Assembly: GCA_913055805.1 (NCBI GenBank)
Contig: CAJXLF010000001.1
Span: 1-64,000, forward strand
Direction: 5' to 3'
DNA: 64,000 nucleotides
Source: an uncultured Salinisphaerales bacterium
GTDB taxonomy: Bacteria; Pseudomonadota; Gammaproteobacteria; Nevskiales; CAJXLF01
Shown: one piece after another, positions 9,179 through 20,255 of the stretch
Layout: each line of letters starts with the position of its first letter
How positions within the stretch are numbered: position 1 is the stretch's first letter
The notes under the pieces: generated by a model
What the model was told of the DNA's origin: nothing
Seen by the model: the letters and a program-made list of their open reading frames with translations, nothing else
Databases searched by the model: none
Program-made: the position numbers and the translations under genes

Positions 9179-11092
9179 CTAGAAGAAGTTGTACTTCAGC
9201 GTGACGCCGATGTTGTCACGGTCGGCCAGCGGACGGTCCAGGAAGTGGGCGTCGCCGCCGGTGAAGACGCTGTAGTTGATGCCTACCGTGAATTTCTGCA
9301 GACGCGTCATTTCCACACCCACGCCGACGCGGATGTCGTCTTCACCGAACAATGAACCAAAGCCGCCGGAGATGGCGCTACGGCCCTTGATCTGCTGCTG
9401 GTAGGAAACGGGGATGCGCAGATCCCAGCCATCAAGGATGGCCTGTTTGTCGAAGAACATCAGCAGCGCCGCGGCATAGGATTCTTCGTCGAAGGTGAGT
9501 TCGTCGAAGTACTCGCCTTCGCGCGGGCCTTCGATACTCTGCTTCGGCTCGACTTCGTCCACTTTCTGATAACCGATTTCGCTGACAATGGTGATGGCGT
9601 CAAACAGCCAGGGTGGGCGGCTGGTATAGATGCCGTTGAGCAGTACCTGGTAGGTATTGGCGCGGGTGGGGGTGGGCACCGGGCCGTTGATGCCGTTGTC
9701 CACATCCACCAGTACGTCCACACCTTCGCGGTAGAGGAATTCGCCGCCGAAGTTGATGCCGAACAGATTGGTGGAGAAGCTCAGGGCCTGCAGTTCAATG
9801 TCATCAAAGTACTTGATGTTATAGGTCACCGGCACTTTGGCGCCCAGCAGGTCAGTGGTGATGGGTGGCAGGAGGCCGGGCAGCGGATCGGCGATTTCCA
9901 GTCCGCCGTAATTGAAGACCACCGCCGGCGTGGTGCTGTGATAACGCAGATAGTAGTAGCCCAGGGTGGTGGTGTAGTTCAGGGCATATTCAATGCCCGC
10001 ACCCCACTGGCCTTTGTCGTCGGGCTTGATGTCAGGGCCGCGCTGCGGATTGAGGCCTTCCTCGGCATTCAGGGGATTGAGCCCGGTTTGCGGCAACTGC
10101 AGCAGCTGCAGTTCCGGCGGCAGCAGATCAGGAATGTCGAGCTGGTCGTTGAGCAGCAGCAGGTCGATCAGTTCCAGGATTTCCACCAGGTCGTTGGAAA
10201 TGATGTGGAACTCCGACAGCGTGTCCAGGAACAGAGGGTTCTTGATGCCATAGGCGAATTCGGCGCCGGGACCCACGATATCCGCCACCGAGAAGAACTC
10301 GCCTGTGGGGTTGAGTTCGGTTTCCTTGAATTCCAGCTTGTACTGGCCCAGCAGGGTGATCTTGTCGGTCAGGGTGAAACGGGCCGACAACTGATTCACC
10401 GGCAGCAGAATGCTCTTTACGTCTGCGCCCGGGATGGTGGCGCGGGTGGCGTCCGCCGGCGACTGCGCTAGTGCAACGCCGGAGAAGAACAGGCTCTGGC
10501 CCCAGGCGGCAATGTGCTGGCCGGCGCGAAGCTGCAGCGCCATGGTATCGCCGAAGTAGAAGGTGCCGTAGGCATAGGCGTCGAGCAGGCGGGCCCGCTG
10601 ACCGCTGAATTCCTGCGCATCCTCGGTGAAGGTATTGAAGGGTTGTTGCGAGGTGTTGATGCGATCGGGTTCAGTATGGGCGTTGTCGTTATCGCTCTGG
10701 TAAACGTCGTCGTAGAAAGCGTCGCCGCGCACCAGGAAGCCGTAATCGCCCCAGTTGAATTCGATATCGCCCAGCAGGGTGACGCGATTATTGATCACAT
10801 CGTATTTGTCGAAGTTGCGGTCGCCGTCGTCGTGGTTGTTCGATTCGGGGAACTTGAATTCTTCGGGAATCGGGACCGAGGGCCGGCCAGGCGCATTGAT
10901 GATGCCGTCGCTGGGATCTTCCAGGCGCCAGGCGGCGGAGTAGGTTCCGACCAAGGTAGTTTTGACATCCGCGCCGAGGAAGTCGAATTCCATTGCCTGC
11001 GCAGTGACGGCAAACAGCAAGCTGCCGCAGAGCGAGGCGTTCCGGGCCTGCTTCAGAATAAAAGAAGTTCTACCTGCCAATGCTGGTTGCAT
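9179..11092 (-). CDS. DUF1302 family outer-membrane protein (paralogue A)
   Basis: A 637-residue protein with a signal peptide ending AQA at 31-33 and a long beta-rich body ending in a C-terminal phenylalanine (YNFF), the usual sorting signal of outer-membrane barrels. The PGRPSVPIPEEFKFPESNN and GDRNFDKYDVINNR stretches are characteristic of DUF1302. DUF1302 genes are common beside hydrocarbon, steroid and polymer degradation genes, and a role in uptake of hydrophobic compounds is inferred, not shown. GGGAGAG precedes the ATG. It is closely similar to the gene at 12259-14175 and shares its strand, with a flavin reductase between them. Confidence 0.88.
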   Translation of the reverse strand: MQPALAGRTSFILKQARNASLCGSLLFAVTAQAMEFDFLGADVKTTLVGTYSAAWRLEDPSDGIINAPGRPSVPIPEEFKFPESNNHDDGDRNFDKYDVINNRVTLLGDIEFNWGDYGFLVRGDAFYDDVYQSDNDNAHTEPDRINTSQQPFNTFTEDAQEFSGQRARLLDAYAYGTFYFGDTMALQLRAGQHIAAWGQSLFFSGVALAQSPADATRATIPGADVKSILLPVNQLSARFTLTDKITLLGQYKLEFKETELNPTGEFFSVADIVGPGAEFAYGIKNPLFLDTLSEFHIISNDLVEILELIDLLLLNDQLDIPDLLPPELQLLQLPQTGLNPLNAEEGLNPQRGPDIKPDDKGQWGAGIEYALNYTTTLGYYYLRYHSTTPAVVFNYGGLEIADPLPGLLPPITTDLLGAKVPVTYNIKYFDDIELQALSFSTNLFGINFGGEFLYREGVDVLVDVDNGINGPVPTPTRANTYQVLLNGIYTSRPPWLFDAITIVSEIGYQKVDEVEPKQSIEGPREGEYFDELTFDEESYAAALLMFFDKQAILDGWDLRIPVSYQQQIKGRSAISGGFGSLFGEDDIRVGVGVEMTRLQKFTVGINYSVFTGGDAHFLDRPLADRDNIGVTLKYNFF

Positions 11093-11266
11093 GCGTCTCT
11101 CCCTGTCGCCAAACCCGTCGTCCGGGTTTGAGATTCATTCTTGAATCTTCAGCGTCTCTGCACCTAAGAAGGTCTGTTGTTGGTAAATAAGGTGGTTTAG
11201 GGAGTGATATTAGGTGCCCTTCGGCAAAAAAATATCACCCATTTGTACTAATTTCGCTGTGCCAGA

Positions 11267-12232
11267 TCAGTTGGGCTCGTATTCCCACATTTCGGCAGCC
11301 TCGGGGTCGAGGGTGTCGAGCAGCTTGTTGAGCAGTGATTTCAGTACCGCTCCTTCTTCGTAGCCCATGCGTTCGGTCACCGTGGACTCCACCGCCTTGG
11401 CCGAGGTGATCAGGCGAATGGCCGTGCGGCTGCCCTCATCGGTGAGATGAAATACTTCGTCTTTCTGGGATACATAGCCCCGCTTGCAGAGCGAGTCCAG
11501 CGCTTCGTGGCCGGCTTCGTCCAGAACGTCGCGCATGGCCTTGTCCATATCCTCGGCGCTCATTTCATGCTTGAGCGTGAGAGTGGAGAGTACGTAGAAC
11601 TCTTCATCGCTGAGTTCCTCGGCTTTCAGCAGTGGTTTGATGCGGCCATAGAACTTGAAGTGACTGCGGCCCAGCAGATAACCCAGAAAGTCATCGTTGA
11701 AGCTGCCGCCCAGATAAGGCCGACGCGGCTTGCCTTCGCGTTCCGTGCGGGGAGTGGCGTGGGCATATTTGCCGCCGTGAAAAACCAGCGGTGCCACGTC
11801 ACTGCGGTCGAAGGATACGACCTCGCCGACGAAGATGACATGGTCGCCGCCGTCGTATTGAAAAGCCGTCTTGCACTGGAAGCGGGCGGTGCAATCCTTC
11901 AACAGCGGCACTTCGCCAACACCGGCGTCTACGTCCAGGCCGGCGAACTTGTCTTCACCGCGCATGGCGAAACGGGTGGACAGTTCAGACTGCCCGGAAC
12001 TCAGCACATGTACAGCCCAGTGCTCGGCTTCCCGGAATACGGGCAGGCTCAGAGCGCTTTTGGCCAAGCTCCAGAGCACCAGCGGCGGGTCCAGCGAAAC
12101 CGAGTTAAAGCTGTTGACGGTCAGGCCCAGAGGTTCGCCCTTGCTGTCACGGGTGGTGATGATGGTGACGCCGGTTGCGAAGCTGCCAAGGGCCTGACGA
12201 AATGCCGTAGTGTCGAAGTTGGTCGATTCCAT
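11267..12232 (-). CDS. Flavin reductase with C-terminal MarR-like domain (C1-HpaH type)
   Basis: A 321-residue fusion. Residues about 8-165 are a flavin reductase domain (FRQALGSFATGVTIIT, GLTVNSFNSVSLDPPL, and GGDHVIFVGEV, which carry the FMN/NADH site). Residues about 190-321 look like a MarR winged helix (LSDEEFYVLSTLTLKHEMS, CKRGYVSQKDEVFHLTDEG). This layout is that of Acinetobacter C1-HpaH, whose MarR-like tail senses the aromatic substrate and controls FADH2 supply to a partner monooxygenase. The oxygenase partner is not adjacent. The gene lies 26 bp downstream of DUF1302 paralogue B on the same strand, so the two are probably cotranscribed. Confidence 0.88.
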   Translation of the reverse strand: MESTNFDTTAFRQALGSFATGVTIITTRDSKGEPLGLTVNSFNSVSLDPPLVLWSLAKSALSLPVFREAEHWAVHVLSSGQSELSTRFAMRGEDKFAGLDVDAGVGEVPLLKDCTARFQCKTAFQYDGGDHVIFVGEVVSFDRSDVAPLVFHGGKYAHATPRTEREGKPRRPYLGGSFNDDFLGYLLGRSHFKFYGRIKPLLKAEELSDEEFYVLSTLTLKHEMSAEDMDKAMRDVLDEAGHEALDSLCKRGYVSQKDEVFHLTDEGSRTAIRLITSAKAVESTVTERMGYEEGAVLKSLLNKLLDTLDPEAAEMWEYEPN

Positions 12233-12258
12233 TGTGCTCTTGAATGATCCTTGTCTAA

Positions 12259-14175
12259 TTAGAAGAACGTGTATTTCACGCTGAGGCCGACGGTGTCGCG
12301 GTCGGCCAGGGGGCGGTCGAAGAAGTCGGGTTCGCCGCCGGTAAAGCCGCTGTAGTTGATGCCCAGGGTGAGCTTGTTCAGGCGGGTGAATTCGAAGCCC
12401 ACGCCGACACGCACGTCGTCTTCGCCAAACAGGGAGCCAAAGGCGCCGTTCAGGGGTGCGCGTCCTTTCAGGGCTTTCTGGTAGGAAAGAGGGATCTTCA
12501 TATCCCAGCCGGCGAAGATGTTGCGTTTTTCCAGGAAGGACAGCAGGGCAATGGCCCAGGCTTCCTCGTCAAACGTCAGGTCGTCATAGAAGGCGCCGGC
12601 ATTGGCCCCTTCCACACTTTGCTGAGGTTCAACATCCATGATCTCAATCCAGCCGACTTCACCCACGAATACCACCGAGTCGAAGTAGAACTGCGGGCGA
12701 TAAGTGTAGATGGCGTTGAGCAGTACCTGGTTGGTGTTGGCGCGGGTCGGTGTGGGTACGGGCCCGTTCACGCCGTTGTCCACGTCTACCAGCGTATCGA
12801 TGCCTTCGCGGCGGATGATCTCACCGCCCACGTTCCAGCCGAACAGCAGGGTCGAGAAGCTCAGGGCGTAAAGGTCGACATTGTCGTAGTAAACGATGTT
12901 GTAGGTTTCGGGCACGATGATGCCGAGGTCGGCGGTGGTGATTTCAGGCAGGGCTACGCCGGGCGCGATTTCCTGTTCCGGGATCACCGTCAGTTCACCG
13001 TAGTTCAGGCGAACCGCCGGGGTCTTCTGGTGATAGCGCAGGTAGTAGGCGCCCAGGGTGGTGGTATAGGTCAGGGCGTATTCAATGCCGAAACCATATT
13101 GCTTGTCGTCATCATCCGGTTCGATATCACCTGCATAGCTGGGGCCCAGGTTCACCGGCACGTTGAGAGGGTTGGAGCCGGGGTCGGGAATGCCGAGGCT
13201 GGGCAGGAATTCGATGGGCAGGTTGGCCACCAGCTGCTGCAACTGGGCGCTGTTAAGCTGGCCGTCAAAAACCTCGTCGATGGTCATCAGCACTTCGGCC
13301 AGAGTGTTGGCATCGGTGATGTCAAAGGAGGCGAGTACCGAGGGGTCAAAGGGGTTGCGGATGCCGAAAGCGAATTCCCGGCCCGGTCCGACCACGTCTG
13401 CCGGCGAATAGAATTCGCCGACCGGATTCAGTTCGAAGGGTTTGAATTCGAACTGGTACTGCCCCAGCAGGGTGATTTTCTCGTTAAGCGTGAAGCGCAG
13501 TGAGGCCTGGTTGATCGGCAGCAGAATACTCTTCACTTCCGCACCGGGAATGGTCGCGCGGGTGGCGTCGGCCGTGGCCTGCGACAGCGCCAGGCCGTTG
13601 AAGAACAGGCTCTGGCCCCAGGCGGCGATGTGCTTGCCCACACGCAGTTGCAGACTCATGGTGTCGCCGAAATAGAAAGTGCCGTAAGCGTAGGCATCCA
13701 GCAGACGGGCGCGCGTACCGCTGAATTCGTCGGCCGCGTCGGTAAAGCTGTTGAAGGGTTCCTGCGTCGTGTTGATGCGATCCGGTGCGGTGTGGGCATT
13801 GTCATTGTTGTCGACGTAGACGTCGTCGTAGAAGACGTCGCCGCGCAGCAGTACGCCGTAGTCGCCCCAGCTGAATTCGATATCGCCGAGCAGTGAGGCG
13901 CGGTTGTTCACCAGGTCGTATTTATCGAAGTTGCGGTCGCCGTCATCGAAGTTATTCGATTCCGGGAACTTCAGTTCCTCGGCAATCGGTACTGAAGGCC
14001 GGCCCGGTGCATCGATAATGCGGTTGCTGGGGTCCTCGATACGCCAGGCTGCGGCATAGTTGCCGAGTAGCGTGTACTTGGCGTTTATACCCCAGAATTC
14101 AAATGTACCGGCGTTGGCGGTTTGTGCAGCCAATGCTGCCATAATCACCCAGAAACCCTTGTATGCTTTATTCAT
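12259..14175 (-). CDS. DUF1302 family outer-membrane protein (paralogue B)
   Basis: A 638-residue paralogue of the 9179-11092 product. Signal peptide MNKAYKGFWVIMAALAAQTANA is cut after about residue 22; the protein ends in KYTFF, a barrel-type C-terminal aromatic. Shared blocks include APGRPSVPI, KFPESNN, DDGDRNFDKYD, SLLGDIEF and VDVDNG(I/V)NGPVPTPTRAN, running the whole length, so the pair arose by duplication. GGGAGGGGAAG precedes the ATG. It is the first gene of the minus-strand set (DUF1302-B, flavin reductase, DUF1302-A). Confidence 0.88.
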   Translation of the reverse strand: MNKAYKGFWVIMAALAAQTANAGTFEFWGINAKYTLLGNYAAAWRIEDPSNRIIDAPGRPSVPIAEELKFPESNNFDDGDRNFDKYDLVNNRASLLGDIEFSWGDYGVLLRGDVFYDDVYVDNNDNAHTAPDRINTTQEPFNSFTDAADEFSGTRARLLDAYAYGTFYFGDTMSLQLRVGKHIAAWGQSLFFNGLALSQATADATRATIPGAEVKSILLPINQASLRFTLNEKITLLGQYQFEFKPFELNPVGEFYSPADVVGPGREFAFGIRNPFDPSVLASFDITDANTLAEVLMTIDEVFDGQLNSAQLQQLVANLPIEFLPSLGIPDPGSNPLNVPVNLGPSYAGDIEPDDDDKQYGFGIEYALTYTTTLGAYYLRYHQKTPAVRLNYGELTVIPEQEIAPGVALPEITTADLGIIVPETYNIVYYDNVDLYALSFSTLLFGWNVGGEIIRREGIDTLVDVDNGVNGPVPTPTRANTNQVLLNAIYTYRPQFYFDSVVFVGEVGWIEIMDVEPQQSVEGANAGAFYDDLTFDEEAWAIALLSFLEKRNIFAGWDMKIPLSYQKALKGRAPLNGAFGSLFGEDDVRVGVGFEFTRLNKLTLGINYSGFTGGEPDFFDRPLADRDTVGLSVKYTFF

Positions 14176-14531
14176 CGACTTCCCCTCCCAAAGTCAGTCT
14201 CGCACCTGTATGAAAACGTATGGCCTGCAGGTATATACGGGTAGATTTTTATATATGGCCCCGTCGCGTACACAGGTTAATATTTTCTATATACGCAATA
14301 TGCCCTAATACAGCGCACCAGAGTAGGTGCAGGGCCCTTTGGGAGCTTCATCCGAACGGAGTAAGGGGGTTCGCCGCCGAACTGGCAGACTGTGCGCCAA
14401 TTCGAAAAATAACTGAAAATACATAGAAATTCTCGCCTGACTGTATTAACTCCGATAAAGTGACCGGAGTGTAAGGCTGCGGTTGAGGCGCGATTCCCAT
14501 GCCAGCTGAAAAACAGAATTCCCAAGGGGAA
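14176..14531. other. Divergent promoter region between DUF1302-B and WS/DGAT
   Basis: The 356-bp gap separates two divergent genes. It is AT-rich from 14240 to 14300 with TATATA-like stretches that could serve the minus-strand gene. Near the plus-strand gene an ACTCCG (14449-14454) and CGGAGT (14465-14470) form a small inverted repeat. Short reading frames occur here, but none shows coding features. No repeat family seen elsewhere in the window is present. Confidence 0.4.
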
Positions 14532-16115
14532 ATGATGAAACGTTTGAGTCCGATTGACGCCTCCTTCCTGTACATGGAGTCCACGCGTACGCCAATGCAC
14601 GTGGGGTCATTGCTTATTTTCCAGTTGCCGAAAAATCCGCCGGAAGATTACTTCAAGACGCTGGTCGATATGATGCGCTCGGAGCCTTTCATGCCGTCGC
14701 CGTTCGACTGCAAGCTCGCAGACACGCGGTTCTCCAGAGTGCGCCCGGCCTGGGTCAAGGCGGAGCTGGATATGGAATACCACGTGCGTCACTCGGCCCT
14801 GCCGAGGCCCGGTGGTGAGCGTGAGCTGGGCAGTCTGGTACAGCGACTGCACTCCAATCCCATGGATCTGGACCGGCCGCTGTGGGAGGCGCACCTGATC
14901 GAGGGGCTGGAAAACAACCGCTTCGCCTTCTATTTCAAGGCGCATCACTGCGCCATTGACGGTATGGGCGCCATGAACATGGTGCGCAAGTGGCTCAAGC
15001 GTGATCCCGGGGATATGTCGGCGCCGGGCGTGATGAGCTTTGCCAAACCCACGGTCAAAGCAAGCCGCAAAACCACCGAAATGATCAAGGGCGTGTTGTC
15101 CAAGGCAACATCGTCGGCCAAGGGTCTGGGCGAACTTGGCGTCAATCTGCTGGAGTTGCGCAAGGGCGACGACAGCATGATCAAGGCTTCCCTGCATACG
15201 CCGCGCAGCCTTTTCAATGCGCCGGTTTCGCAGCAGCGGCGTCTGGGTACCCAGCTGATCAAGCTGGAGCGTTTCAAGCGTTTGTCCAGGGCTCTGGATG
15301 TGACGGTGAATGACGTTACCCTGGCGGTGGTAGGCGCCACCACCCGCCGCTATCTGCTGGAACAGGGGGCGCTGCCCGGGAAGTCGCTGACGGCCTCGGT
15401 GCCGATCGGACTGGACCGCGCTGAAGGCGAGGGCGGTAATGCCGTTGCCGGGTTCGTCTGTTCACTGCATACCGACATTGATGATCCACTGGAACGCGCC
15501 CGCAGAATTCACCATGCCACGCTGCGTGCCAAGGCCGACCTGAAAAAAATGTCACGCCCGGCGCTGGATAATCTGGCTTTGAGTGGCCTGGCGCCGCTGC
15601 TGATCGGTCAGATGACCGGCACGCTGGCCAAGATGTCGCCCATGTTCAACTTCGTGGTCTCCAATGTGGTCCTGACCAAGGAGAAGCTCTATCTCATGGG
15701 CGCCGAACTGGAGGCGATGTACCCCATCTCCTTCCTGTTCGATGGTTATGCGCTGAATGTGACTGTGATCGGCTATTCGGAAAATGTGGCGATCGGCTTT
15801 GTGGGTTGCCGTGATGCCATCCCCAAGCTGCAGTCGTTGGCGGTGTATGCCGGTGAGGCGGTTACGGAGCTGGAGAAGGCGGCTGGCCTCAAGCCCCTGC
15901 CGGTAGCCAAAGCGTCGGCCAGCAAAGCCGTGACGAAGAAAACGGTAACGAAGAAACCTGTAACGAAGAAAACCGCCGTCCGCAAAGCGCCGGCGAGCAA
16001 AGCAACGCCCAAGGCGACGGCGGGTAAACCAGCGACCAGAAAACCGGCAGGCAAGTCCGCGGTCAGGAAAACTTCAGCACCCAAACGTAAAGTAGTGGCG
16101 GTGAGAAAGAAGTAG
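14532..16115 (+). CDS. Wax ester synthase/diacylglycerol acyltransferase with basic tail
   Basis: A 527-residue WS/DGAT that joins acyl-CoA to alcohols or diacylglycerol to make storage lipid. The catalytic HHxxxDG motif is HHCAIDG (138-144); PLWEAHLIEGL and NDVTLAVVG are the other family blocks. The usual SNVPGP motif is changed to SNVVLT. The last 69 residues form a low-complexity K/A/T/R tail with KKTV, KKPV, KKTAVRKA and PAGK repeats like histone H1 or AlgP, absent from standard WS/DGAT enzymes of about 450-470 residues. ATG 14532 or 14535 follows AAGGGGA; the reading frame extends upstream without a better start. Confidence 0.92.
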   Translation: MMKRLSPIDASFLYMESTRTPMHVGSLLIFQLPKNPPEDYFKTLVDMMRSEPFMPSPFDCKLADTRFSRVRPAWVKAELDMEYHVRHSALPRPGGERELGSLVQRLHSNPMDLDRPLWEAHLIEGLENNRFAFYFKAHHCAIDGMGAMNMVRKWLKRDPGDMSAPGVMSFAKPTVKASRKTTEMIKGVLSKATSSAKGLGELGVNLLELRKGDDSMIKASLHTPRSLFNAPVSQQRRLGTQLIKLERFKRLSRALDVTVNDVTLAVVGATTRRYLLEQGALPGKSLTASVPIGLDRAEGEGGNAVAGFVCSLHTDIDDPLERARRIHHATLRAKADLKKMSRPALDNLALSGLAPLLIGQMTGTLAKMSPMFNFVVSNVVLTKEKLYLMGAELEAMYPISFLFDGYALNVTVIGYSENVAIGFVGCRDAIPKLQSLAVYAGEAVTELEKAAGLKPLPVAKASASKAVTKKTVTKKPVTKKTAVRKAPASKATPKATAGKPATRKPAGKSAVRKTSAPKRKVVAVRKK

Positions 16116-16203: not shown

Positions 16204-16827
16204 TTATTCCGGCAGGCAGCCGCATTGCGCCAGTTTTTTCAGCACGGCATCCACTTCCTCTTCCAGACTCAGCTGGTGACTCGGCAGCACCAGTTCGGGT
16301 GATTCCGGCGCCTCGTAAGGATCGTCGATGCCGGTGAAATTCCTGATTTCGCCGGCACGGGCCTTCTTGTACAGACCCTTGGGGTCGCGCAGTTCGGCTT
16401 CGGCCAGCGGCACGTCCACGAAGCATTCGATGAAATTCATGCCTGCGTCTTCGTGCAGCTTGCGCACGAGTTGCCGGTCGGAACGGTAGGGGCTGATGAA
16501 GCTGGACAGTACGATCAGTCCGGCGTCAACGAACAGCTTGGCGATTTCGCCGATGCGGCGGATGTTCTCGGTGCGGTCTTCTGCAGAGAAGCCCAAGTTA
16601 CGGTTGATGCCCATGCGAATGTTGTCGCCGTCCAGGCGATAGACCAGGTGGCCGCGCTTATGCAGTTCCTTTTCCACGGCGACGGCAATGGTGCTCTTGC
16701 CGGCACCGGACAGGCCGGTGAACCACACGGTGGCACCCAGCTGGCCGAGCAGGGTCTGGCGTTCCAGGCGGCTGACTTCGCCGTCGTGCCAGGTCACATT
16801 GGTGGCTTTCTGCGTCGTGTTTTCCAT
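16204..16827 (-). CDS. cysC: Adenylylsulfate (APS) kinase
   Basis: A 207-residue APS kinase that phosphorylates adenylylsulfate to PAPS. Walker [10 protein letters not shown] is at 38-46; [19 protein letters not shown] is split across the conserved D-G-D-N-x-R substrate site, and ISPYRSDR and FVDVPLAE follow. GAGGAG lies 9 bp before the ATG at 16827, which supports this start over an upstream in-frame ATG. No cysDN genes are adjacent. A PAPS-dependent sulfotransferase gene is 2 kb away, so this copy may feed sulfation instead of, or as well as, sulfate assimilation. Confidence 0.95.
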
Positions 16828-16895
16828 GTCTTTGCGCTCCTCTTGCATTCCTTCCGTGCCCGGCCGATAGTCGTCTGGACAATGCTTCAAAAAAA

Positions 16896-16919
16896 TGAGA
16901 CGATGTCTCAATTGAGACA
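16896..16919. promoter_or_regulatory. TetR-type operator between cysC and tetR gene
   Basis: TGTCTCAATTGAGACA (16904-16919) is a perfect 16-bp palindrome, preceded by a further TGAGAC half-site (16896-16901). It lies 31 bp before the TetR start codon and 77 bp before cysC, in the shared divergent promoter region, so the regulator probably controls both itself and cysC. Confidence 0.65.
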
Positions 16920-16949
16920 GAGTATCGTATTATTTTGAGGAGGCTGTCA

Positions 16950-17555
16950 ATGGCCCAATCCGCACAACCCTCGTTAAGGGAGCAGAAAAAGCAGCAGGTG
17001 CGCGAGAACATCGTGGCTGCCGCCATGGGGTTGCTCAAGAGCAAGGGGCTGGATGGTTTTTCTGCCAATGACATTGCCCTGAAGGCCGGTGTGGGGCGTG
17101 CCACGTTCTTCCGTTATTTCGAATCCAAGGAAGCCGCGCTGGTGGTGGGCTTCTACGAAGACCGTCTGCAGGCCATGGTCAAGGCGCTGGAACTGGCGCC
17201 GCCCGAACTGAGCCCCATGGACACCATCATCTGGCTGTTCCATCTGCTGGAACAGGGGCAGGGGCAGGACGAAACGCGTCTGCTGATGCAGGGCACGGTG
17301 CTGACTTCATTTCCCTCGTTGCGCGCCAAGGCCCTGGAATTCCAGATCAGTTACGAGTCGGCCATTTCCAGTGCCATTGCGCATCGTTTTAAAGAGACGC
17401 GCGAGAACGATACCCGGCCCGGTCTGCTGGCCGCTGCCGTGCTGGCGGTGGTGCGTTCGCTGGTGGACCAGTGGATTGAGCAGGGTGCTGAAGGCGATGT
17501 AAACGCCATGCTGCATGAGGCGCTGGAAGAACTGAAGGCCGGCTTCCCGGCCTGA
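16950..17555 (+). CDS. TetR-family transcriptional regulator
   Basis: A 201-residue regulator with an N-terminal helix-turn-helix: ANDIALKAGVGRATFFRYFESKEA (about 39-62) is the classic TetR recognition helix and YF motif. The C-terminal ligand domain is not specific enough to name an effector. TTGAGGAGG lies 8 bp before ATG 16950. It is divergent from cysC with a perfect palindrome between, and is followed by DUF1214, sulfotransferase and SDR genes on its own strand, which it may also control. Confidence 0.9.
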   Translation: MAQSAQPSLREQKKQQVRENIVAAAMGLLKSKGLDGFSANDIALKAGVGRATFFRYFESKEAALVVGFYEDRLQAMVKALELAPPELSPMDTIIWLFHLLEQGQGQDETRLLMQGTVLTSFPSLRAKALEFQISYESAISSAIAHRFKETRENDTRPGLLAAAVLAVVRSLVDQWIEQGAEGDVNAMLHEALEELKAGFPA

Positions 17556-17575
17556 GGGTTTCATACGTAAGGGTG

Positions 17576-18805
17576 ATGACGTCCCGTCAACAGGGGCGCA
17601 ATCTTTTGAATGCGAATGAGGAGAGAGCCATTAAGAAGCTATTGATCAAGCTCCTGGCGGGCTTCAAGAAGTTCCGGCTGTTGATGTTGAAACTGCGTGG
17701 CAGGACCGAGGCGGATGTGTCGGCGCAGCGCATCGTCACCGGCAAGGCCTGGGAGGAATACTGCGACACGCTCAAGGCCGCCGGCAGCGCGCTGGTCTTT
17801 CCAGGCGCGCCCACCGATGCCTTCAACCAGGCCGAGGGTGTGCGTTATCTCAGCCGTCTGGTGCGGGCGGGCCTGGAGGCGTTTATTGAATATGCCGATC
17901 CCAAGGCGCCGGTGCTCAAGCGCATGGTCCACGAGACTGTGAAAATGGGCTCGGACAATCCCGACAACAACTACCAGAACGCCACCATCAGCGGCCAGTA
18001 CGAGTATCGGATTTCCGGTACCCGGGGCACGGTTCACTATCTGGGTTTTGGCGTGCAGTCCGGCAGCTATGGCAAGGGTGGTGGTCTGAAAACCACAAGC
18101 TATGTCGAAGCGGCCGACCTGGAGGTAGGCGAAGACGGTCGTTTCGAGCTGATTCTGAGCTGTAACCGGCATGAAGGTAACTGGCTGGAAATGGAACCGG
18201 ACACCAGTCTGGTTATCGTGCGTCAGACGTTCATGGATCGTGATACCGAAGTGCCTGCGGATCTGTCCATTGAGCGCATTGGTGGCGATGGTCTGCCCAC
18301 CTTGCTGACGCCTCAGGCAATAGACGAAGGTCTGAACACGGCCGGCACGCTGGTGGCGGGGGCTTCCATGCTGTTCGCCAAATGGGCCCGTGACTGGCAG
18401 AAATTCCCCAACGAATTGCCGCTGTTTGATCCCGAGGTATCGGCGGCCGCCGGTGGCGATCCCAACATCACCTATTACCACGGCTACTGGCGTCTGGCGC
18501 CGGATGAGGCGTTGGTGATCGAAGCGACGCCCCCCGAATGCGAAGCCTGGAACTTCCAGCTGGACAATCACTGGCTGGAGTCGCTGGACTATCGCTACTT
18601 CAAAATCCATGTGAACAAGCACACCGCCGAGTATCGCGAGGACGGGTCAGTTCAGATCGTGGTGGCGCATAGCGATCCGGGTGTGCCGAACTGGATCAAT
18701 ACCGTGGGCCATGACTGCGGCGCCATGAGCTTCCGCTGGATTCGGGCCGACGAGCATCCACAGCCGCAGTGCCGGGTGGTGAAATTCTCGGAGATCAAGA
18801 GATGA
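17576..18805 (+). CDS. DUF1214 domain-containing protein
   Basis: A 409-residue protein. The C-terminal DUF1214 domain is marked by YYHGYWRLAPDEALVIEATPPECEAWNFQLDNHWLESLDYRY in pieces (about residues 300-345) and the final IVVAHSDPGVPNWINTVGHDCGAMSFRW segment. DUF1214 proteins occur near lipid and steroid catabolic genes and have no proven activity. The start may be GTG 17573 or ATG 17576. It lies 20 bp after the TetR gene, so likely in the same operon. No signal peptide is seen. Confidence 0.85.
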   Translation: MTSRQQGRNLLNANEERAIKKLLIKLLAGFKKFRLLMLKLRGRTEADVSAQRIVTGKAWEEYCDTLKAAGSALVFPGAPTDAFNQAEGVRYLSRLVRAGLEAFIEYADPKAPVLKRMVHETVKMGSDNPDNNYQNATISGQYEYRISGTRGTVHYLGFGVQSGSYGKGGGLKTTSYVEAADLEVGEDGRFELILSCNRHEGNWLEMEPDTSLVIVRQTFMDRDTEVPADLSIERIGGDGLPTLLTPQAIDEGLNTAGTLVAGASMLFAKWARDWQKFPNELPLFDPEVSAAAGGDPNITYYHGYWRLAPDEALVIEATPPECEAWNFQLDNHWLESLDYRYFKIHVNKHTAEYREDGSVQIVVAHSDPGVPNWINTVGHDCGAMSFRWIRADEHPQPQCRVVKFSEIKR

Positions 18806-18901
18806 AAACGACGTCTCACGCAAAGCCTGCCCCGGACACTGATTCGGGGGCGCAGAGGCGCAAAGTACTTCTGAAACACCCTCTTTCTGAGCTTCCACCG
18901 T

Positions 18902-18959
18902 CAACAGGGAAGGGAGTCTTTTCCCTCTCCCCTGGCGGGAGAGGGTCAGGGAGAGGGGG
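18902..18959 (+). repeat. Palindromic GGGAGAGGG repeat, copy 1
   Basis: CCCTCTCCC (18923-18931) and GGGAGAGGG (18937-18945) form a perfect 9-bp stem, followed by TCAGGGAGAGGGG. The leader TCAACAGGGAAGGGAGTC also matches copy 2 at 24072-24132, so the unit is about 58 bp. It lies between the DUF1214 and sulfotransferase genes. Confidence 0.8.
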
Positions 18960-18977
18960 AATGACGGATCCGCAATC

Positions 18978-20255
18978 ATGAAACGTAATCTTCAAATTCC
19001 CTTTAAACCCTACCGGCCCTTCGCCATCAGGCTGTTTAACATCCTGGGCGGGCTGTTTGCTGTGCTGGGGTTGCGCAGCAGTCTCAAGCCCGAGTCCATG
19101 CTGAAGGCGGCCCGACGTCGTACCGGACTCAGCGATTTCGGTGACGAATCCTTCATGGAAGGGCTGCAGGTGCTGGCCAGATCGCTTGACGAGGAAGCCA
19201 GCCTGCATCCCTTTGGCCGTTTCGTGGCGCGTGATCGTCTGGTGGGTTTTCTCAGTGTGCGTCTGAAAGTACAGGCACTGGTGAAACAGCATCCGGAAAT
19301 TCTGCAGGAACAGATCAAGGCGCCGCTGGTGATTGCCGGCCTGCAACGTACCGGCACCACCATGCTGCATCGTTTGCTGGCGGCGGACCCGGATACTCGC
19401 GCCATGCTGTCCTGGGAGTCGATTGATCCGACGCCCGTGGATCTGAAGCCGGGGCAGGTGGATCCGCGATTCAAGAAGGCTCAGCTTGCAGAGAAGGCGC
19501 TGAAGTATATGGCGCCGGAGTTTTTCTCCATTCACCCGGTGGAAGCGAGCGCACCGGAGGAGGACATCCTGCTGCTGGAATACAGCTTCAGCAGTGACGT
19601 GCCGGAATCCATGTACTACGTGCCCAGCTATGGTGAATGGCTCAAGCAACAGGACATGACCGGCGCCTATGAATACCTGAAATTGCTGCTGCAACTGCTG
19701 CAGTGGCAGCGTGGAGCCGAGCGCTGGGTACTGAAGACGCCGTCGCATCTGGGCAAGCTGGATGTGTTGCTCAAGGTGTTCCCTGACGCAAAGATCATCC
19801 AGACGCATCGTGATCCTTCCAAAACCACCGCTTCGTTCTCATCGATGGTGACGCACGGTTCGGGCGTGTTCAGTGACGTGGTTGATGCGCATGAACGGGG
19901 CCTGCTGTGGCTGAACAAGAACGCCGACATGTTGCGTAGCGCACAGCGGGTGCGTCAGCAGCAGCCAGCCGCTTTCATCGATGTTTATTACGCCGACCTG
20001 ATGCGTGACCCCATGACAGAAGTGCAGCGTATCTACGACTTTGCCGGTATTCCGCTGACGGATGCCGCCCGCAGGGCCATGGACGAGTCGCGCCGGGTCA
20101 ACAAGAAGGACCGTCACGGCAAGCACAAATACACCCTGGAGGAGTTCGGCCTGACGCCGGAGCTGGTGGACGAGAAGTACGCCGGCTACCGCCAGGCATT
20201 CAATATTCCTTCGGAAGATAAACAGACACAGCAGGAGACGAGGGCCGCCGCATGA
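18978..20255 (+). CDS. PAPS-dependent sulfotransferase
   Basis: A 425-residue Sulfotransf_3-type enzyme that moves sulfate from PAPS to an alcohol or amine. The 5'-phosphosulfate loop is GLQRTGTT (121-128) and the 3'-phosphate site is around THRDPSKTTASFSS (about 276-289). The N-terminal hydrophobic stretch (residues 12-32) suggests membrane association. Its 3' end overlaps the following SDR gene by 4 bp. With cysC close by, the locus holds both donor synthesis and transfer. The acceptor is unknown; a sterol or long-chain alcohol is only a guess from neighbouring genes. Confidence 0.9.
   Translation: MKRNLQIPFKPYRPFAIRLFNILGGLFAVLGLRSSLKPESMLKAARRRTGLSDFGDESFMEGLQVLARSLDEEASLHPFGRFVARDRLVGFLSVRLKVQALVKQHPEILQEQIKAPLVIAGLQRTGTTMLHRLLAADPDTRAMLSWESIDPTPVDLKPGQVDPRFKKAQLAEKALKYMAPEFFSIHPVEASAPEEDILLLEYSFSSDVPESMYYVPSYGEWLKQQDMTGAYEYLKLLLQLLQWQRGAERWVLKTPSHLGKLDVLLKVFPDAKIIQTHRDPSKTTASFSSMVTHGSGVFSDVVDAHERGLLWLNKNADMLRSAQRVRQQQPAAFIDVYYADLMRDPMTEVQRIYDFAGIPLTDAARRAMDESRRVNKKDRHGKHKYTLEEFGLTPELVDEKYAGYRQAFNIPSEDKQTQQETRAAA

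Follow-up and report, generated by a model that had tools for sequence, protein, structure and literature searches.

A recurrent polycationic C-terminal tail on proteobacterial WS/DGAT enzymes, possibly an electrostatic tether

The window (the whole 64,000-nucleotide stretch of DNA that was analyzed) contains an uninterrupted forward-strand open reading frame (ORF) of 538 codons (14499 to 16115) that encodes a wax ester synthase/diacylglycerol acyltransferase (WS/DGAT). The enzyme core (14499..15902, +; residues 1 to 468) is supported by Pfam (PF03007, E 3e-72; PF06974, E 5e-29), TIGR02946, an AF2 model, and PDB entry 6chj. The TIGR02946 profile scored 439 bits against a cutoff of 310, with residues 16 to 462 matching the family over its full length. 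Most of the core was modeled with a pLDDT of >80, and Foldseek searches with the AF2 model retrieved the WS/DGATs of Marinobacter (6chj; E 1e-41, target TM 0.87) and Acinetobacter (7nxg; TM 0.87). The catalytic HHxxxDG motif reads HHCAIDG (14943..14963, +; residues 149 to 155), and H149, H150, D154, and G155 showed no variation in a 34-sequence alignment. Judged by these features, the protein is an intact WS/DGAT and is probably active. Its true start codon is probably the ATG at 14535 rather than 14499, since AAGGGG precedes ATGATG there. Disorder is predicted for the first 10 residues of the frame (region 14499 to 14537).

The first-pass annotation of this DNA had pointed to an altered SNVPGP motif, and the motif indeed reads SNVVLT (15660..15677, +; residues 388 to 393), but this is not special to the window protein. 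Variants of the form SNV[V/L/I/K]xx or SNLVxS occur all through a clade of some 50 orthologues. Because the closest homologues (45 to 61% identity) likewise carry SNVV or similar in place of SNVPGP, the alteration marks a whole subfamily. Named relatives within the source order belong to Nevskiaceae, Algiphilaceae, and others (Solimonas, Sinimarinibacterium, Stenotrophobium, and Oceanococcus). Divergently oriented upstream genes for a DUF1302 protein (12259..14175, −) and a flavin reductase-like protein (11267..12232, −), identified with Pfam and by tblastn on relatives' loci, are kept beside SNVV-type WS/DGAT genes within the order. This conserved neighborhood supports the orthology of the SNVV-type enzymes and suggests a shared pathway. 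Two DUF1302 genes and one flavin reductase gene are present in the window (9179 to 14175), and the comparison extended to 22 loci of relatives. Eight actinobacterial SNVV-type WS/DGATs (from Nocardioides, Gordonia, and others) are nested inside the gammaproteobacterial clade, which possibly reflects horizontal transfer. Downstream, the convergent neighbor encodes APS kinase (cysC; 16204..16839, −; PF01583, E 8e-70). TetR, DUF1214, and sulfotransferase-like genes adjoin it, and the region from 16204 to 20255 is a possible sulfation cluster.

The core is followed by a polycationic, disordered C-terminal tail (15903..16112, +; residues 469 to 538) of 70 residues with a net charge of +24 (K19 A15 V9 T9 P6 S5 R5 G2). 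The phmmer alignment to 6chj stops at residue 464, right at the onset of the tail, and residues 473 to 538 are modeled without secondary structure at a pLDDT of <50 (about 40). The charge of the last 70 residues ranks first among 303 ORFs (mean, −0.4; SD, 4.6), a background comprising ORFs of ≥200 residues in the window and the following 400 kb of the same contig (464 kb in all), in which greedy ORF calling may have left a few spurious entries. The first-pass view that the enzyme bears a basic tail resembling those of histone H1 and AlgP holds, and the tail is real and predicted to be disordered. The length first given for it, 69 residues, needs adjustment, as that span begins at K471 and equals 68 residues plus the stop codon.

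A 15-bp tandem repeat within the tail (15933..15973, +; TRF, 2.7 copies, 88% match) encodes VTKK[T/P] three times and is a plausible route by which the tail grew. Of the repeat structure first proposed (KKxVxKK/RKPAGK), RKPAGK, with the only KPAGK, is present as a single copy, and "repeats" was thus an overstatement for that motif. Neither exact KPAA repeats nor PAKKA motifs occur in the tail. Profile scores were 17.3 bits for the histone H1-like HC2 family (PF07382; cutoff, 40) and 16 bits for hist_H1_lk_Burk (NF038053; cutoff, 80). When the whole genome was searched with HC2, the tail was the second-best match (31.2 bits, E 3.8e-7), below the curated cutoff. A genome-wide search for the pattern KKx[A/V]KK proved too loose, with two matches compared to five in the reversed control.

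Artifactual or composite origins of the tail were also considered. A frameshift or two-gene fusion is ruled out because the other two forward frames of the tail region contain stops, independent genomes carry in-frame tails, and the next gene is the convergent cysC. Fusion to an AlgP gene, which had been raised at the outset, is likewise ruled out: no AlgP gene lies downstream at the window locus, where cysC occupies the opposite strand. Derivation from the genome's own KKPAA-repeat phasin (see below) is not supported, as the repeat differs and the 45% alignment identity between the two tails is scarcely above that expected of two K/A/P-rich sequences.

A search for tailed homologues found basic tails on many proteobacterial WS/DGATs. 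The initial claim that normal members lack such tails is therefore wrong: proteobacterial WS/DGATs, those of Marinobacter among them, commonly bear basic tails that range from short to long. We aligned 135 distinct WS/DGATs and defined the extension as the residues following the conserved TELE. Extensions of ≥15 residues beyond the core were present in 81 of the 135, and within this phylogenetically non-independent set 71 had a net charge of ≥+4, 33 of ≥+8, and none of ≤−4. As a background, 30/303 C termini (last 30 residues) from the source genome had a net charge of ≥+4. A matched control was formed by 478 ORFs that neighbor the WS/DGAT genes at these loci; a net charge of ≥+6 in the last 20 residues was found in 4% of them, versus 39% of WS/DGATs. 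With a 40-residue window, the excess over neighboring ORFs was weak (P = 0.1 at ≥+6). Since the majority of family tails span only 10 to 30 residues, lengthening the window reduces the excess. The tail was considered as a trait confined to the SNVV subfamily, and this was rejected, since SNVPGP enzymes are also tailed.

On the WS/DGAT tree, the strongly basic class required at least 26 changes by a quick method, and well-supported branches force 18 of these; thus, tails have been gained or lost many times. The nearest sisters of the window protein, Oceanococcus and an actinobacterial clade, have the tail nearly or wholly absent, and WS/DGATs can therefore work without it. Among 21 Marinobacter-type orthologues, median identity was 85% in the core and 35% in the tail, with tail lengths of 15 to 61 residues and a net charge that was always +4 to +12. 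Pooled tails consist of A, K, R, P, T, S, and G, and residues of hydrophobic or aromatic character are nearly absent. In these alignments, tail sequence and length evolve fast while charge persists.

Wider sampling across the class and phylum, with the tail-less core as the query, retrieved H1-like tails of 50 to 99 residues (+10 to +29) from distant gammaproteobacteria and from other classes of the phylum, although the bias was weaker (20/32 extensions basic, 4 acidic). Basic ends were found on none of the 32 actinobacterial WS/DGATs in seven genomes, a set for which the tail start was placed slightly further upstream than elsewhere. Across the sequences compared, the window tail lies at the extreme of a trait that recurs among proteobacterial WS/DGATs, and it is not the only tail of its kind. 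Basic tails on WS/DGATs are unreported in the open-access literature searched, and this trait is apparently undescribed so far.

Basic low-complexity tails are common among bacteria, and the source genome holds several. Of its nine WS/DGATs, five have a basic end. These nine paralogues are found in a 3.4-Mb genome, and two of them are adjacent and very divergent (C1:273322-276080). PhaM and PhaF are known to tie PHB granules to the nucleoid, and a Phasin_2 protein of the PhaF/AlgP kind, with a KKPAA-repeat tail of ∼210 residues (contig C6:85331-86263), is a likely granule-nucleoid tether in this genome. A FadE-type acyl-CoA dehydrogenase (C1:209443-212115, −) bears an H1-like KPAAKK tail, which occurs in 7/30 homologues of the order (counting the source genome's own); the other ends are short and mostly acidic. 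A DEAD-box helicase and further ORFs of the source genome likewise end in basic tails. The FadE and phasin tails indicate that K/A/P-rich tails extend beyond WS/DGATs and that a granule tether of the classical type is available in this genome.

We tentatively favor, at somewhat less than even confidence, a role as an electrostatic tether. The C terminus, extended into a disordered polycationic tail, would hold the peripheral enzyme and its nascent lipid droplet at an anionic surface. Across the family, the likeliest surface would be anionic phospholipid of the inner membrane or of the droplet monolayer, while the longest tails, including that of the window protein, would bind DNA as well. A phospholipid anchor fits best because short tails are numerous in the family and long ones scarce. 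Charge-based binding, whether to DNA or to anionic lipid, is plausible by analogy, since MLDS (DNA), HBHA (phospholipid), PhaF, and AlgP use similar tails, and a tail as long as that of the window protein would very likely bind DNA in vitro. Consistent with a tether are the basic charge of 71 of the 81 extensions, the excess over neighboring ORFs in the last 20 residues, the charge retained at 35% tail identity, the composition of the pooled tails, the many gains or losses on the tree, the phosphoinositide-binding tail of HBHA, the five basic-ended paralogues, the recurrence in distant Gammaproteobacteria and other classes, and the tail on FadE, another lipid enzyme of the genome. Counting against it are the tail-less nearest sisters, the weaker bias in wider sampling, the weak 40-residue excess, and the fact that the tail offers neither an amphipathic helix nor hydrophobic residues with which to insert into a membrane. 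In HBHA, moreover, charge alone is insufficient for lipid binding, and lysine methylation is required (PMC6176652).

The closest competitor, which we consider unlikely, is a nucleoid tether built into the synthase itself. Nonspecific DNA binding by the tail would attach neutral-lipid droplets to the nucleoid, so that they are positioned and partitioned with it, as PhaM and PhaF do for PHB granules, AlgP for polyP granules, and MLDS for Rhodococcus droplets. The H1-like composition and disorder of the tail and its rank as the genome's second-best HC2 match (31 bits, E 3.8e-7) suit this role, as does the binding of DNA by the similar K-rich tails of MLDS (PMC5504291), PhaF (PMC5658603), and AlgP (PMC9239181); however, the HC2 match is under the curated cutoff, and most family tails are short enough to be closer to polybasic patches. 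WS/DGATs of actinobacteria, where MLDS/HBHA/TadA are known as proteins in their own right, lack tails, and this also points this way, but it constitutes one phylogenetic contrast in seven genomes. The Phasin_2 protein already present, with its far longer tail, fits a nucleoid-linking job better than the WS/DGAT tail does.

Improbable in our assessment is that the tail has no selected function and is a low-complexity extension that slippage at repeats has lengthened and that the protein tolerates, being disordered and soluble. The internal 15-bp repeat, the fast shifts in length with repeated losses, and the sporadic tails on FadE homologues, the helicase, and other ORFs would all be expected of such growth. 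Neutral extensions should be less one-sidedly basic than those observed, and their charge should not persist at 35% identity; ends of actinobacterial WS/DGATs, furthermore, are never basic. The one-sided charge thus argues against neutral growth, without naming the binding partner. Least probable is another use: the tail might bind polyphosphate, RNA, or acyl-CoA, serve as a site of lysine modification, or keep a sticky enzyme soluble. A polycation will bind polyanions of any kind, AlgP localizes to polyP granules (PMC9239181), and both FadE and WS/DGAT use acyl-CoA, but no conserved modification motif was seen in the tail.

Tethers are known for PHB and polyP granules and for the droplets of Rhodococcus; a synthase carrying its own tether would bear on how proteobacterial lipid droplets are positioned and inherited. 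The recurrence of basic tails on related enzymes suggests a possible means of attaching lipid-making enzymes, or the droplets themselves, to an anionic partner, for instance membrane lipid or DNA. A more general proposal is that the neutral-lipid synthase of Proteobacteria also serves to position or tether the droplet, by means of polycationic tails that evolved repeatedly, where actinobacteria use separate MLDS/HBHA/TadA proteins; we hold this to be rather doubtful. WS/DGATs are biotechnological enzymes, and tails could be lost unnoticed from constructs, as the 6chj chain ends where the tails begin.

Among known systems, the histone H1-like families HC2 and hist_H1_lk_Burk resemble the tail in composition, with profile scores far under their curated cutoffs. 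The nearest enzymatic parallel is found in the Marinobacter WS/DGATs (orthologues from 37 loci; crystal structure 6chj from M. aquaeolei VT8), which share the fold, the HHxxxDG motif, and basic K/R/A/P tails (15 to 61 residues) with the window protein, but retain SNVPGP and usually have shorter tails. The 6chj chain ends at ELELNAGL, at which point the tail of the window protein begins. With its SNVVLT, the window protein falls outside the canonical SNVPGP-type subgroup. Like the window WS/DGAT, the actinobacterial MLDS, TadA, and HBHA place a lysine/alanine/proline-rich C-terminal tail on a lipid droplet system protein; they are, however, non-enzymes with a coiled-coil N-terminal domain and PAKKA motifs. 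Through its lysine-rich C terminus, MLDS binds DNA and connects the droplets of Rhodococcus with it (PMC5504291). The corresponding region of HBHA, a relative of MLDS, binds phosphoinositides and is required for lipid inclusions; HBHA-related proteins have been reported from actinobacteria only (PMC6176652). PhaF, PhaM, and AlgP carry a disordered, H1-like basic tail on a storage-granule protein, a character shared by the window tail, but they join it to a phasin or helical N-terminal domain without catalysis rather than to an acyltransferase. Where AlgP and PhaF have KPAA tandem repeats, the window tail has three VTKK[T/P] units and one KPAGK. PhaF and AlgP set the position of PHA and polyP granules, respectively (PMC5658603, PMC13052382, PMC9239181).
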